DNA of 64,000 nucleotides. It comes from Streptomyces canus (lineage in GTDB: Bacteria; Actinomycetota; Actinomycetes; Streptomycetales; Streptomycetaceae). The position numbers were made by a program, and so were the translations under genes. Of this stretch, positions 25,401 through 31,244 are shown one piece after another. Numbering within the stretch: position 1 is the first letter of the stretch; each line of letters starts with the position of its first letter. The notes beneath the pieces were generated by a model, which was given only the letters and a program-made list of their open reading frames with translations, searched no databases and had not been told where the DNA came from. The stretch lies in the NCBI RefSeq assembly GCF_030816965.1, contig NZ_JAUSYQ010000002.1, positions 7,864,001-7,928,000 on the forward strand. The letters are read 5' to 3'.

Positions 25401-25424
25401 CAGCCCTGGCAGATCTGAGAGTTG

Positions 25425-25905
25425 ACTCAATATGTGAGGGCTTCGGGCTGGTCCGGGACGCCGTCGAAGGCGGGGCGGACCGGCGGGAGCACCCTGTGGG
25501 GCGTCAACCGTCGCAAGAAGGGCGCCGCGAACACCCTGGCCGCGCTCAGGTCGATCCGGGCCGCTCGCCCGGACGGCGCCCCGATCTACGTCATCCTGGA
25601 CAACCTGTCCGCCCACCAGGGCGACACCATCCACCCTGGGCGAAGAAGAACAAGGTCGAGCTGTGCTTCACGCCGACCTACGCGTCCTGGGACAACCCGA
25701 TCGAAGCCCACTTCGGGCCGTTGCGACAGTTCACCATCGCCAACTCCAACCACCGCAACCACACCACACAGACCCGGGCCCTCCACGCCTGTCTCCGCCG
25801 GCGCAACCCCAACGCCCGCCACCCCGACGTCCGTGCCGCCCAGCGTCGAGAGCGCGCCTGCAGCCGCAGTGAGAAGGGCATCCGGCCGCAGCACACCCCG
25901 CGGAC
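25425..25905 (+). pseudogene. IS630-family transposase remnant
   Basis: Only the DDE catalytic half is left. LWGVNRRKKG, IYVILDNLSAH (catalytic Asp) and, after a one-base deletion near 25638, WAKKNKVELCFTPTYASWD with NPIEAHFG (catalytic Glu) match IS630 transposases. The N-terminal HTH half is missing and the frame is broken, so it is inactive. It marks the left edge of an accessory island. Confidence 0.75.
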
Positions 25906-25973
25906 GACTCCACGCCAAACTCGGACGCGACGGCACCTTGATCCTTTCGGTTCCGTGCCTGTCCAATCGGCAG

Positions 25974-26849
25974 ATGACTGAGACCGATGCCGACCTTGGC
26001 ACCGTCACCGCGCCCTCCGGAATGCTCGTGCTGGGGATGGCGGGCTGGATCGACTACTGGCCGCAGGTGGGACGGCCGCTGTCCGAGCGGGCTCGGACAG
26101 CAATGGCCACCGGCGGCGGCCACCTGCACGGACCCGAGGACTGTGAGCCGTCCGCTTGGATGTGCGAGGCGATCGCTGTAGCAGCCGCTGCAGACCGGCC
26201 CCTGCAGGTTCGGGCCCAGACATCGGCCTCACCCTTCGACGGGGAACCGACGATCGCCGTCCTGGAGGTCGACCTCGGCCTGCCGTGGCCCGGCCCCGAT
26301 GACGGCGAACCCGTGCAGCTCGGCGATCTGCCGGTCGACCGATGTGGCATGGTCCTCGGTGACGCTCAGGCGCTGGACGACTTCACCGGCCTGGACGGAC
26401 AGTCCACCGACGGCTTGGCGGACGTCACCTACTGGGGCAAGTACGAAGACACCGTCCATGCGCAGTTCGGCGGTGACCGCATCCCGCAGCACCCCAGCGG
26501 ACACGGGCCGCGCGGATGGCTCGACCTCCCCCTGGTCGAGGCTGAAGCGGTCGCCGAACGGCTCCGAACCTGGACCCGAGAAGGGCCTGGCAATGGCCTG
26601 ATGGTCTCCGTGGACGCCCACACCGACTTCCACCGATTCAACCGAGCCGGCTGGAGCCACCCACTGCTGGCGGGTGTCGTCGACCTCGGCGGTTGCCCAG
26701 TGCTCGGTCTCGGCTGGGATCCCGGGGACCACTCCATACGCCACCGCGGAGAGCGAGCCCACGGACAGGTCTACCCCGCCACCCTCGAAGCCCGCGCAGG
26801 CAACGCGGTACTGCGCTGGACCATCCCGCCCTACGCTCCCGCCCTGTGA
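25974..26849 (+). CDS. Hypothetical protein
   Basis: I do not recognise this 291-residue protein. It is acidic, soluble and without signal peptide or membrane helix, and contains WIDYWPQVGRPLSERAR near the start and HRFNRAGWSHPLLAG near residue 220. The ATG at 25974 lies inside the tail of the IS630 remnant's second frame and has no clear ribosome site. Codon use is normal for the genome, so it is probably real. The island setting would fit an accessory role, which cannot be specified. Confidence 0.5.
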   Translation: MTETDADLGTVTAPSGMLVLGMAGWIDYWPQVGRPLSERARTAMATGGGHLHGPEDCEPSAWMCEAIAVAAAADRPLQVRAQTSASPFDGEPTIAVLEVDLGLPWPGPDDGEPVQLGDLPVDRCGMVLGDAQALDDFTGLDGQSTDGLADVTYWGKYEDTVHAQFGGDRIPQHPSGHGPRGWLDLPLVEAEAVAERLRTWTREGPGNGLMVSVDAHTDFHRFNRAGWSHPLLAGVVDLGGCPVLGLGWDPGDHSIRHRGERAHGQVYPATLEARAGNAVLRWTIPPYAPAL

Positions 26850-26946: not shown

Positions 26947-27195
26947 ACGGGGGCTCACCGTACGCTGCCGGACACGGGCGAACGCGTCGGCTACGCGAGA
27001 TGCAGTCTGGACAAGCAGGGCCTCGCCGCCCAGCGCGAGATCCTGCTCAGCCTGGACGCCCCGGAGGACCGGATCTACTTGGACCACGGACTGACCGCAA
27101 CCAACCGCGACCGGCCCGGCCTGGCCCAGGCCCTCGCGGCCGTGCGCTTCGGCGACACCCTCCTCGTCCCGAAGCTCGACCGCCTCGCACGCTCA
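26947..27195 (+). pseudogene. 5' half of serine recombinase (resolvase/invertase)
   Basis: The frame reads GERVGYARCSLDKQGLAAQRE and LLVPKLDRLARS, the start of a serine recombinase catalytic domain. VGYAR is the usual first strand, but no good start codon precedes it and the usual S of the VSTxDQ motif is degraded. It stops exactly at the left terminal repeat of the 27196-30869 segment. The 3' half resumes at 30870 and completes the domain. Confidence 0.75.
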
Positions 27196-27199
27196 GTAG

Positions 27200-27525
27200 G
27201 TGTTTTTCTTCTTCCTTTGCTTTAACCGGCAGCGCGCGGCGCCAGCCAAGGATTCGGCGTATTCGGGTGCTATCCGATTCACGCTGACTTACCGCGCCTC
27301 GCGGTGCTCCGAGAGCGGGGTGGGCACATGTATCCACTCCTTGGCCAGCAACAATGGTCCTCCTGGACATTTTCTTGAGATCCACGCGCCCCTCAGGGAA
27401 GCACCAGTTGGTCCGGAAGGTTGCTATCCCTTCCCGTGGATCGACCAGGTCAAAGACTTTTTCTTACCAACTCATAGGAACGATCACCCTCCGGTACCAA
27501 AATTCACACTGCTAGCATCCGCGGC
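27200..27525. other. Non-coding left arm of the cargo element
   Basis: This 326-bp stretch is clearly lower in GC than its surroundings (runs such as TTTTTCTTCTTCC and GACTTTTTCTTACC) and has no ORF with coding bias. A TAGCAT hexamer at 27513-27518 lies about seven bases before the AtpF-like ATG and may be a -10 box of a near-leaderless transcript. The base composition suggests foreign origin. Confidence 0.45.
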
Positions 27526-28035
27526 ATGGGACCCCTGACTCCACGCCTTATGGACCTTGCTATCGGTTTGATCTGTTTCCTCCCGACCTTCGCAATCTTC
27601 GCAAAAGTCCTGCTGCCGCGCATCGAGAAGACCCTCAAGGCCCGCGAAGACGCGATCGACGGCACCGTCGAGCGGGCAAGAGCGGTTCACGAGGAAGCCC
27701 GACGCATCCACGCTGAGTACCAGGCGGAACTTGGCGCCGCTCGTCACGAGGCGGCACGAATCCGGCAAACCGCCGCAGAGGAGGGAGCCGCACTCCTCGC
27801 CAGTGTGCGCGCAGAGGGGCAGGAGCAGCGCGACCACCTCGTGGCGGCAGCAAGGGCACAGCTGGAAGCCGACCTGATCATCGCGGAAGCGGAACTGCGC
27901 GAGGACGTCTTCAACTTGGCCACCGCACTCGCAGGTCGCATCGTCGGTGAACCCCTCATCGATCTGCCCAAGGCCCGCGCCATCTCCGACGAATTCTTCG
28001 CCACGGCAGACATCAAGTCTTCCGCGACGAAATGA
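27526..28035 (+). CDS. Orphan ATP synthase F0 subunit b-like protein
   Basis: The 169-residue protein has one N-terminal membrane helix (about 10-28), a tether LLPRIEKTLKAREDAIDG, a long Ala/Glu/Arg coiled coil (about 35-130; YQAELGAARHEAARIR) and a C-terminal LATALAGRIVGEPL. This is the full layout of actinobacterial AtpF, which is usually 170-185 residues long and lies in the atp operon. Here it stands alone in a mobile segment, without other atp genes. It could enter the peripheral stalk of the host enzyme, compete with it or have taken another role; the sequence does not decide. A possible -10 lies close to the ATG. Confidence 0.75.
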   Translation: MGPLTPRLMDLAIGLICFLPTFAIFAKVLLPRIEKTLKAREDAIDGTVERARAVHEEARRIHAEYQAELGAARHEAARIRQTAAEEGAALLASVRAEGQEQRDHLVAAARAQLEADLIIAEAELREDVFNLATALAGRIVGEPLIDLPKARAISDEFFATADIKSSATK

Positions 28036-28621
28036 CCTGATCGCCCGCCGCAGGACATCCAAACTCAGCCCGGATCCCAAAAGATGGCGCGAACCCCGCC
28101 TCCTGGCCCCAGTCGGCCGAAGACGGCGGCTTCGGTACCTTGTGCGTCCGCCCAGCGGTACGCAGTTTCTCGACGTCCGTCAGTGGCGTGTTGTGGAGGG
28201 CGGGCCGAGAGCGAAGGAAGCTCCCGTCTTGGGCGAGGAAATCGTCGACTCTTCAGTGAGTTGCCAGTCATCCGGGAGCATGCTTCATGATCCCGGATGT
28301 ACTCGACTGGGGGACACATGCTCAGAGAGGTGCTCTCGCTATCACTGGTCGAACGCCTTTTAGTCACGTGACGTAGCTGCCCCTGCTATAGGCAGGAGTC
28401 TTCCTCGTCCACTGACTGCCACCATCGACTGCGGCAGCGGATCACCACACTCCCGGCAGTACCGCCGAGCCGTTCCGCCAGCTCCCACACCACAGATCAT
28501 CCAGCCGTATGGCTCGGTTGGGCGCATTCTCGCCGTCCCCTCCGGGCCGCCGCAAGTCCGACATGGCGGTCACCCATGGTGACGCAAGTCGGTAGAGCGA
28601 TGGCTTCCGGGCTCTGCGCGG
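28036..28621. other. 586-bp gap between the convergent cargo genes
   Basis: No ORF here has convincing coding bias. Two hairpins are visible: CCTGC-TATAG-GCAGG (about 28385-28400) and GTCACC-CAT-GGTGAC (28569-28583). The second lies just past the S9 stop and may end that transcript. The region has mixed base composition and may contain older insertion debris. Confidence 0.4.
28569..28583 (-). terminator. Possible terminator of the S9 peptidase gene
   Basis: A perfect 6-bp stem with a 3-base loop lies 39 bases downstream of the minus-strand peptidase stop. The stem is short and lacks a T-run, so this is tentative. Confidence 0.3.
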
Positions 28622-30652
28622 TTACAGCAGGCCGGGTTGCTGCCATTCGGTGCCGAGGACGTGGTGGTCGAGGAAGTTGAGGCATGTCTCGTACCACAGG
28701 CGCGCGTGGTTCGGCTGCAGGATCCAGTGGTTCTCGTCCGGGAAGTAGAGGTACTTCGCGGGGACTTCGTGGCGCTGCAGTTCCTGGAAGAGCGTGGCGC
28801 CCTGCCCGACGGGCACGCGGTAGTCCTTCGCGCCGTGGATGACCAGCATCGGGGTGCGGATCTTCGCGACGTCCAGGTGCGGGGAGTCGGCCTCGTACCG
28901 CTCGGGGCGGGTCAGCGGGTCGCCGAAGATCCGCTGGAAGTACCAGGGCACATCGGTGTCGCCCTGAAACATCCGCAGGTCCCACAGACCCGCATGGCTG
29001 ATGATCGCCTTGAACCGGTCCGTGCTGGTGGCGGCCCGGTTGGCCATGTATCCGCCGTACGAGCCGCCGGCGAGCGCCGTGCGTGAGGCATCGATGTCGT
29101 GGCGGGCCTCGGCCGCGTCGGTCAGCGCGATCACATCCGTGTAGGGGCGTCCGCCCCACTGCCCCCACCCGCGCTGGTGGTTGATCTGCCCGTAGCCGGT
29201 CGACAGGGCTGGATCCGGCAGCAGCACGGCATAGCCGCGCGCGGCGAACGGCCACGGGTTCCACCGCCAGGTCCAGCCGTTCCAGCTGGACTGCGGTCCG
29301 CCGTGGACGGCGACGAGCAGCGGAGCGGGCTGCTCGGCGGATGCGCCTTCTGGCAGGACGAGCCAGCCGCGCAGCAGGAACCCGTCGTCCGCCTCCGCGT
29401 GCACCTCGGTGAGTGTGCCGGGCAGCTGGCCGACGCCACCCGGGGCGGGCAGCACGGCCGGAGTCTGGTCGGCGACGTCGGCGTCGATCCGGACGGGCGT
29501 CGGCGGCGCGTCGACCGCATGGCGCAGGGCGTAGAGCGTCCGCCCGTCGGGGGCCACGGTCAGCGAGCCGTACGCACCCGAAGCGGTCAGGCGTGTGACG
29601 CCGCCGTCCGGGTCGCGCCGGAAGACGGGCGCGTGCCCCTGCTCGTCGGACGTGAAGAACAGCGTGTCGTCCACCGGTGAACAGGCCACGCCACCGGGCC
29701 AGTTGTCGAACCCGGGCAGCAGGTCCCGCACCGCGCCGTCGGCCAGGTCGATCCGGACGAGGGTCGCTTCCCAGGGGTCGTTGTACGTCGGGTAGCGCAT
29801 CCGGCAGCACACGACGGCCGAGCCGTCGTGTGTGAACCGCGGCGCCTCGTAGAGGTGCTCCAGGTCACCGACGACGTGGATCTCCTCACCGCTCACCGCG
29901 TCGGCCACCACCACGGCGGTGCGATGCTCGTCCGGGACCCGCCCGGGCACGAACCGCCGGTACGCGACCCGTGTGCCGTCCGGCGACAACGCCGTGTCCC
30001 CCGGATCCTCCAGACCGATCCCCTGCCCGCCGGCGACGACCGGCTCCGCATCGGCATCGGCACCGGCACCGGCACCGGCACGGACGAAGGTGTGCGGCTC
30101 CGCCGGGCCGAGGTCGTGGTCCCAGGCACGGGTCGGCCCGGCCTCATACAGGATCGCGGTGACCTTCGCGTCCTTGCGCGCCGCGCGCAGCTTGCCGTGC
30201 TCATCGGCGTCGGCGGCACCCGGCAGCAGTCCCGCGGTGTGGCACAGCGCGCCGGAGTTACGGGCGACGGTGACCGCAGCGATCCCGCCTGGATGCCGGG
30301 CCACGACAACGGCCTCCCCGCGCGGCGGCAGCGCCCACAGAGCGGCACCCTCGTCCTCGTCGCCGTCACCGTCCGCAGCGCGGCTGGACAGGAAGTACAG
30401 CGTCCCGTCCGGACCGAACACCGGACCCGACTCACCCTTGTCGGACCGCGTCAGCCGCAGCGCGTCGCGCTCCCCGGCCGGATCGATCTCCCACAGACCG
30501 GACACGAACCGCGTCCCGTCCCCGGACAGCGACTGCACGGCGGCTACGAGACGAGTGCCATCGACGGACAGGGCAAGGGAGTTGATACGGGGGCAGGCGA
30601 CGAAGGCGGACAGGTCGCGGAAGGCGGACGGGCCACCTGAGGACTCGATCAT
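28622..30652 (-). CDS. S9-family prolyl-oligopeptidase-like serine peptidase
   Basis: The 676-residue cytoplasmic protein has an N-terminal beta-propeller (about 20-400, with LSPDGTRVAY-type units) and a C-terminal alpha/beta-hydrolase peptidase domain. The nucleophile is GGSYGGYM (Ser near 532), with Asp in HGAKDYRVP (near 609) and His in DENHWI (near 641). The acyl-aminoacyl peptidase/dipeptidyl-peptidase type fits, and the propeller admits only short peptides. There is no signal peptide. The ATG at 30652 is chosen from the family start, but no strong ribosome site supports it. It lies convergent to the AtpF-like gene in the same cargo segment. Confidence 0.85.
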   Translation of the reverse strand: MIESSGGPSAFRDLSAFVACPRINSLALSVDGTRLVAAVQSLSGDGTRFVSGLWEIDPAGERDALRLTRSDKGESGPVFGPDGTLYFLSSRAADGDGDEDEGAALWALPPRGEAVVVARHPGGIAAVTVARNSGALCHTAGLLPGAADADEHGKLRAARKDAKVTAILYEAGPTRAWDHDLGPAEPHTFVRAGAGAGADADAEPVVAGGQGIGLEDPGDTALSPDGTRVAYRRFVPGRVPDEHRTAVVVADAVSGEEIHVVGDLEHLYEAPRFTHDGSAVVCCRMRYPTYNDPWEATLVRIDLADGAVRDLLPGFDNWPGGVACSPVDDTLFFTSDEQGHAPVFRRDPDGGVTRLTASGAYGSLTVAPDGRTLYALRHAVDAPPTPVRIDADVADQTPAVLPAPGGVGQLPGTLTEVHAEADDGFLLRGWLVLPEGASAEQPAPLLVAVHGGPQSSWNGWTWRWNPWPFAARGYAVLLPDPALSTGYGQINHQRGWGQWGGRPYTDVIALTDAAEARHDIDASRTALAGGSYGGYMANRAATSTDRFKAIISHAGLWDLRMFQGDTDVPWYFQRIFGDPLTRPERYEADSPHLDVAKIRTPMLVIHGAKDYRVPVGQGATLFQELQRHEVPAKYLYFPDENHWILQPNHARLWYETCLNFLDHHVLGTEWQQPGLL

Positions 30653-30758
30653 GCAGGCGATTGTCGCCCTTGCACGATACGGACGGCCAGGGAGCATGAC
30701 GTGGTGCGCCCGTCTGTCAGCAGCCCTTCCCACATAACCGACCGTACATACACGGATG

Positions 30759-30773
30759 TAACGCCATTCGTTA
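30759..30773. promoter_or_regulatory. Putative operator TAACG-N5-CGTTA
   Basis: An inverted repeat with a 5-base spacer lies about 107 bases upstream of the S9 start, inside the right arm of the cargo element. A further CGTTAC just downstream extends the symmetry (GTAACG...CGTTAC). It may control the peptidase gene. Confidence 0.35.
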
Positions 30774-30869
30774 TCGCCGTTACCGAGACGCTTTCGCGGA
30801 ACGGCCACTCCTGCCCCAGAAGCCCCATGACGGAACTGACCTGCCGCGTTGAGGAAGGAAAACACCTAC

Positions 30870-31244
30870 GTTCCCGACGCCCGCGACATCGGCGACTCGC
30901 TCATCGCCCGCGACGTCAAGTTCTCGCTCGGCGGCACTCTCTACGACCCCGCCGACCCGATGGGTAAGATGTTCTTCAACATCCTGGCCACCTTTGACGA
31001 GTTCGAGGTCGTGCGCATGCGTACCCTCGAAGGCATGGCGGTGGCGCGGGCCAAGGGCAAACTCAAGGGAAAGCAGCCCAAGCTCAGCGCACACCAGCAG
31101 ATGCACCAGGTCCGGCAGCACCAGTCCGGCGAGCACGCCATCGCCGACCTCGCGGAGCTCTTCTCCGTCAGCGGCCCCACCATCTACCGCGTCCTCGAAC
31201 GCCACCCGAGCGCACCGGCGCCTCCGCCCTCTGTGGGGCAGTGA
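30870..31244 (+). pseudogene. 3' half of serine recombinase
   Basis: The frame resumes with VPDARDIGDSL and continues through LGGTLYDPADPMGKMFFNILATFDEFE, the long helix of serine recombinases. It ends with an HTH of the resolvase type (IADLAELFSVSGPTIYRVLER). With the 5' half it would give a protein of about 205 residues. Without its N-terminal catalytic part it cannot act. Confidence 0.75.

Follow-up and report, generated by a model that had tools for sequence, protein, structure and literature searches.

A segment of roughly 3.7 kb (positions 27196–30869) in a 64,000-nucleotide stretch of the Streptomyces canus genome (contig NZ_JAUSYQ010000002.1, positions 7,864,001 to 7,928,000; hereafter the window) is inserted exactly within a serine recombinase gene on the 10.5-Mb host contig, and is very probably a non-autonomous derivative of a Tn5714-like transposon that arose by internal deletion. 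The segment carries passenger genes between inverted ends and retains relics of the transposition module found in relatives with the same ends, which encode an IS5-type transposase. An initial sequence-only reading of this DNA had regarded the class of element as unfamiliar; upon comparison with other genomes this did not hold, as the segment is real and largely explained as a derivative of a Tn5714-like transposon.

The two ends of the segment (27196–27214 and 30851–30869) are inverted repeats that match at 17 of 19 bases, as had been read from the sequence, while among 300,000 pairs of positions drawn at random from the window no match exceeded 15 of 19. When the host genome was searched with a 19-bp consensus of the ends at up to three mismatches, the segment's own two ends were the sole matches and a reversed control pattern gave four. 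In Pfam, the left half of the interrupted gene holds a Resolvase N-terminal domain and the right half holds its remainder together with HTH_7. The right half was matched in 5 of 199 genus genomes, the host counted. Four loci in three genomes (L093, L094, L095 and L097) cover the site uninterrupted at flank identities of 76–91%, all four reading ...CGCTCG/GT..C... (slash, insertion point) with zero bases gained or lost relative to the two flanks in the window, and the insertion is therefore exact. The sequence-only reading had claimed exact borders whose removal restores the recombinase and had proposed to look for intact copies in relatives; these loci are such copies and confirm the borders. 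Two recombinase loci in genome G107 align from residue 28 onward only. The recombinase gene of the window has also decayed independently of the insertion: the start codon ATG seen in the relatives is altered here, and the 3' part lacks two residues that they have. That the inverted ends are coincidental and the interval ordinary chromosomal DNA can be dismissed with near certainty, given the random maximum of 15, the position of the ends exactly at the gene interruption and the recurrence of paired ends in other genomes.

The ends (GTAGGTGTTTT) are also those of a group of Streptomyces transposons akin to Tn5714 from plasmid SCP2. Members of this family are laid out as a DUF6192 gene, a small open reading frame (ORF) and an IS5-type DDE transposase gene, followed by variable cargo. 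The window segment has the GTAGGTG/GTGAGTG-type ends of a Tn5714-like transposon and is without this set of three genes, of which just relics remain at 28388–28509. At up to two mismatches the end consensus matched at least once in 86 of 392 genus genomes, most of these single matches being probably due to chance since the reversed control pattern also matches often. Fifteen end matches, mostly starting GTAGGTGTTT, were picked by eye and fetched, other similar starts being left unfetched; among those picked, the ends in G123 and G255 are one base off and that in G246 starts GTAGGTGTC or GTAGGTGTG. A contig scan for exact ends returned 33 stretches, six of them in Streptomyces and 26 seemingly from outside actinobacteria. 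L137, L141, L148, L157 and a Mycobacterium locus (L160) were scored, and L138 and L154 were taken as the S. apricus and S. acidicola contigs already present as L076 and L075.

The S. apricus element (L076) spans 3385 bp between paired ends and contains the DUF6192 gene and a transposase with DDE_Tnp_1 and DUF4096 domains that passes the NCBIfam IS5 model. Further paired-end elements were found at L081, L148, L162, L167 and L168. A core of about 2.85 kb is common to L076, L081, L162, L164 and L167 at 80–95% identity, past which these elements diverge, while L148, at 933 bp, is truncated within the DUF6192 gene and L168 is a more distant relative (~65%). Past the core, the cargo consists of an MFS transporter gene in L162, a terpene synthase gene in L167, a NucA/NucB-type nuclease gene in L168, DsbA-like and dioxygenase genes in L081 and a GNAT gene in L072. 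The same ends around quite different cargo, a further check proposed from the sequence, were in other words found. In L167 (5891–10085) both ends are of the left type and the terpene synthase gene lies between the transposase gene and the second end. Two elements with the same ends appeared to be free of a transposase. L070 (5165–6642; 1478 bp, GC content 62%) has a TGA duplication and a single HAD hydrolase ORF with no transposase ORF seen, and L082 has a 3-bp duplication and no tblastn match to the transposase or DUF6192. At 22 of 30 transposase loci (L099–L128, from 246 genomes) a DUF6192 match was present within the fetched 1.5 kb, and at two of the eight negative loci (L119 and L125) the contig breaks off on the upstream side. 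As a DUF6192 gene usually adjoins Tn5714-like transposases, this suggests that the DUF6192 family may have an accessory role in transposition. A DUF6192 gene, variable cargo or passenger-only derivatives of Tn5714-like elements did not come up in searches of open-licence papers, among which Tn5714 was named in one and DUF6192 in none.

The relics within the window segment (Table 1) record how the module was lost. The relic of the core left arm is 85–93% identical in six elements (L076, L081, L148, L162, L164 and L167). Near 28418 lies a deletion junction at which the homologies to the two parent sequences overlap by 9 bp, the parents sharing CAGTG at the join. Beyond it, the 3' end of the transposase gene is followed by DNA matching at 76% the transposase-GNAT stretch of the S. 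glaucescens plasmid pSglau1, in which an intact GNAT gene adjoins the transposase gene; the GNAT protein of L072 is 94% identical. Because the relics fuse the core left arm to the transposase 3' end and GNAT, what is missing is a single block made up of the DUF6192 gene, the small ORF and almost the entire transposase gene. No intact transposase, integrase or recombinase gene was found within the segment. The sequence-only reading was right in this respect, and right that a transposase from elsewhere would be needed if the segment is to move, but it overlooked the transposase relics at 28388–28509. Both segment ends are of the right type, which together with an absent target duplication makes up the two unusual details of the segment.

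Table 1. Features of the segment and of the interrupted serine recombinase gene (window positions).
Feature	Position	Strand	Basis
Serine recombinase, 5' part, to ...RLARS	26980..27195	+	Resolvase domain, Pfam PF00239; comparison with L094/L093
TCA, left half of the CTCA/G target site (slash, junction), as in Tn5714-like insertions	27193..27195	+	
Left terminal inverted repeat GTAGGTGTTTTTCTTCTTC, right-end type	27196..27214	+	
5' fragment of a small gene; homology stops at 27459	27365..27459	+	Longer homologues in G227 and G263
AtpF-like passenger gene, 169 aa	27526..28035	+	ATP-synt_B domain (Pfam)
GNAT acetyltransferase fragment, frameshifted and truncated, in two reading frames	28157..28281	-	Intact gene adjoins transposase in L217 and L072
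Tn5714-like IS5-type transposase gene, 3' end remnant (last ~30 bp)	28388..28418	-	
Tn5714-like core left-arm relic, 92 bp (core bp ~34-125)	28418..28509	-	
S9 family peptidase passenger gene, ~676 aa, open frame	28622..30652	-	
Right-end region of the element	30747..30869	-	Common to G366, G090 and G246 (last 74 bp)
Right terminal inverted repeat, inward reading GTAGGTGTTTTCCTTCCTC	30851..30869	-	
Serine recombinase, 3' part: remaining Resolvase domain and HTH_7	30870..31244	+	Pfam, relatives

Target sites were tabulated for 16 elements of the family with both ends placed, the window excluded. Loci with one convincing end were left out of the duplication count (L071–L075, L077, L080, L137, L141, L157, L163 and L169–L172, among others), and L164, which reaches both contig ends, was unscored. 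A 3-bp duplication was observed in 14 of the 16 elements, being TNA in 13 and CTA in one, and was absent in L165 (TGA and TTA) and L220 (TCA and TGA). In five elements (L070, L082, L168, Tn5714 and L223) the weaker end had been picked with the help of the duplication, the best-scoring end of L223 being without one; once these five were dropped, 9 of 11 elements retained a duplication. The motif CTNAG was found at 7 of 14 empty sites, three of them in the helped group (L070, L082 and L223), and at 4 of 9 outside that group, as compared with 6.3% of TNA sites in the window. Duplication of TNA would fit the IS1031 subgroup of IS5. The window site reads CTCA/.../GTTCCC, so that the left junction CTCA/G fits the family and the right-hand TCA duplication is absent. 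A 2-bp GT repeat had instead been noted here and likened to the trace of a serine recombinase crossover. Insertion by a serine recombinase, or in an IS607- or integron-like manner, with a 2-bp GT core would account for the GT at both junctions and for the lack of a TNA duplication in the window copy. It is nevertheless highly improbable, as a DDE transposase is encoded between these ends in relatives, most of which have 3-bp duplications, the left junction fits CTNAG and no recombinase gene was found inside the segment.

The arrangement is best explained by the action of a Tn5714-type transposase of the IS5 family, a DDE enzyme that would have inserted the ends into the recombinase gene at a CTCAG target. 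The parent element, if read leftward from 30869, would have consisted of an outer end, the S9 gene, a core with an already broken left end, the DUF6192 gene, the small ORF, the transposase gene, the GNAT gene, the AtpF-like gene and an outer end at 27196. An internal deletion at short CAGTG-like homology would have taken out the whole transposition module, starting at core position ~125 and sparing just the last ~30 bp of the transposase gene, so that the passenger genes came to be flanked by two right-type ends. Several observations weigh against this explanation. The full parent was not seen in any genome searched, the relics match Tn5714-like relatives and not Tn5714 of SCP2 itself (E 1e-3), and outside the 19-bp repeat the left end has little in common with the other ends inspected. 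Nor does it account for the missing TCA duplication, considering how regularly the other family members have one (14 of 16, or 9 of 11 unhelped). Furthermore, all four spanning relatives have TCG and not TCA at the site, which requires one silent base change; the host lineage would therefore have gained the A before, or at, insertion.

The deletion may have taken place before or after insertion. There is about an even chance that a complete transposon entered the site and its core was deleted there, in which case the element never moved without its transposase. The deletion junction has short homology as in illegitimate deletion and the surrounding recombinase gene is also decaying, both in line with such an order of events; however, no full-length copy was found at the same site and the missing duplication is not accounted for by this order either. 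A somewhat more tentative alternative is that of a true mobile insertion cassette (MIC), in which the core was lost first and the remainder was then moved in trans by a Tn5714-type transposase. L070 and L082, which have these ends and a 3-bp duplication with no transposase found, suggest that such movement in trans is possible, bearing in mind that the duplication helped to place the weaker end in both. The host moreover contains relics of a close transposase (89–92% identity over 204–213 bp and 91–94% over 93 bp), so that a transposase source once existed in the host. On the other hand, a complete transposon that lost its core at the site would account for the window just as well, searches of the host and, with each end region, of 382 genomes gave no second copy of the cassette, and the host is without a close intact transposase, its best full-length match being 49%. 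With just relics of the close transposase and IS5-type copies at 34–49% identity in the host, some of which have different ends, the cassette is probably stranded today.

The cargo of the derivative consists of the AtpF-like and S9 genes, which are convergent, and the left arm has a GC content of 56% as compared to 70% for the window. This had been described correctly from the sequence, except that the two genes were held to be the only contents and the relics at 28157–28281 and 28388–28509 were missed. The AtpF-like protein scores below the cut-off of the best NCBIfam subunit B model (138 of 156 bits) and just over that of TIGR01144 (65.9 versus 65.5). It has 48% identity to the other match in the host, taken to be the host's own atpF product. 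Relatives at 61–71% identity were found in 6 of 294 other genus genomes, and one further genome with a relative (G330) came from a DNA search; no consistent neighbour of the gene was observed among the loci compared. A conserved AtpF-GNAT unit, hinted at by a plasmid of S. sp. NBC_00158, was not supported, as the two GNAT proteins do not find each other there.

The last 470 bp of the segment were used as a query for the S9 end in 382 genomes and matched in 15, the host counted. The sole match reaching through the terminal repeat was that of S. acidicola (G366) at 90%, whose similarity to the window breaks off within the S9 gene, while G090 has the end region in common with the window without S9. 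The remaining matches are confined to the S9 gene and the DNA upstream of it, their homology ending at ~30771 or earlier. In G291 (L208/L196), 95 bp that adjoin S9 in the window (30744–30838) adjoin it in the opposite orientation, as if flipped. A plasmid of S. canus contains window positions 28418–30869, that is S9 and the right end, at 92% DNA identity, and its copy runs on into a longer relic of the core left arm (bp 39–197) where the window has its deletion; a second end was not found for this copy. Because the plasmid copy continues into the longer relic, S9 appears to have been joined to the broken-left-end core before the window's own deletion took place. A conserved functional pair of AtpF-like and S9 proteins was not supported, as the list of genomes with AtpF relatives and that with S9 ends (14 other genomes) have no genome in common. 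Since the two lists do not overlap and the cargo between these ends is quite different in other elements, the pairing looks like an accident of mosaic assembly. An anti-phage role was rejected upon finding no PADLOC model match for the AtpF-like, S9 or DUF6192 proteins. Upstream of the recombinase gene, positions 25422–25980 hold degenerate remains of what looks like an IS630-type transposase, with an LDNLSAHQG-like motif; the one reading frame tried gave no Pfam match at E 0.001.

The segment provides a clear anatomical case of a transposase-free passenger cassette arising from a full transposon, and links cargo DNA that had no label before to Tn5714-like elements. Should the ends be active in trans, they would offer a plain route by which genes of metabolism and transport could pass between chromosomes and plasmids of Streptomyces. 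We tentatively consider that Tn5714-like ends may serve as a general gene-capture system of Streptomyces, in which one transposase would move any two ends, of either type, with or without a transposase gene between them, although the odds are somewhat against so broad a view. Were it true, cassettes with passengers only (S9 peptidase, AtpF-like, HAD hydrolase, transporters) would form a pool in the genus alongside transposase-bearing ones (terpene synthase, acetyltransferase and others), DUF6192 would be an accessory factor of the transposition machinery, and the system would have given rise to the window cassette, among others, with its two right-type ends and lack of a duplication.

Among known systems, the anatomy of the window segment resembles that of a MIC. 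According to a passage of the qnrD paper, a MIC consists of inverted repeats, lacks a transposase and usually has a target duplication, and the IS231A transposase is reported to mobilise MIC231 in trans (PMC3913671). MICs and transporter insertion sequences (ISs) are also named in a section of the ISsaga paper, according to which a cognate transposase can activate such derivatives (PMC3129680). Like the MIC231 type of Bacillus cereus as portrayed in these passages, the window segment has passengers between IS-type inverted ends, no transposase and an expected dependence on a transposase in trans (PMC3129680, PMC3913671). In contrast, MIC231 belongs to IS231 and is reported to be mobilised in trans (PMC3913671), whereas the window ends are of the Tn5714/IS5 type and their mobility is putative. 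IS-type inverted ends, and passengers without a transposase gene (a remnant of ~30 bp only), are thus found in the window as in a MIC, while the target duplication is absent. Nothing specific on Streptomyces cassettes of this type came up in searches of open-licence papers. The relatives L076, L081, L162, L167 and L217 fit a transporter IS, that is an IS with passenger genes, and differ from the window segment in that they encode the transposase.

Simple IS5 copies in the host are more remote. L086 and L087 encode homologues of the IS5-type transposase between ends GTGGGCGGTT or GAGGGCGGTA with TCA/TGA duplications, but have no DUF6192 within 1.5 kb and transposases just 34–36% identical to the Tn5714-like one; DUF6192 was absent within the fetched flanks of all five IS5-type loci of the host. 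The ends of L086 and L087 read GTGGGCGGTTCGTGAG and GAGGGCGGTATGTGAC, with TCA and TGA duplications, and L088 has L086-like ends with TCA and TTA flanks. The S. glaucescens pSglau1 element (L217 5001–8978, 3978 bp) is much closer, having the same ends, a transposase-GNAT stretch at 76% and a left arm at 86% to the window relics. Unlike the window segment it is complete, with one GNAT cargo gene, a TCA duplication and no AtpF-like or S9 gene annotated inside. Tn5714 itself (S. coelicolor plasmid SCP2, AL645771) has ends GTGAGTGTTTG that are related to those of the window, a TNA target and a core with 74% identity to the one found in relatives sharing the window's ends. As placed here it spans 3512 bp and keeps DUF6192 as its first gene, the small ORF and the transposase, with a TCA duplication, whereas the window segment lost the module and is without the duplication. 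The type of element is accordingly already known, and it is the details of the window segment that are somewhat new, not the kind of element.

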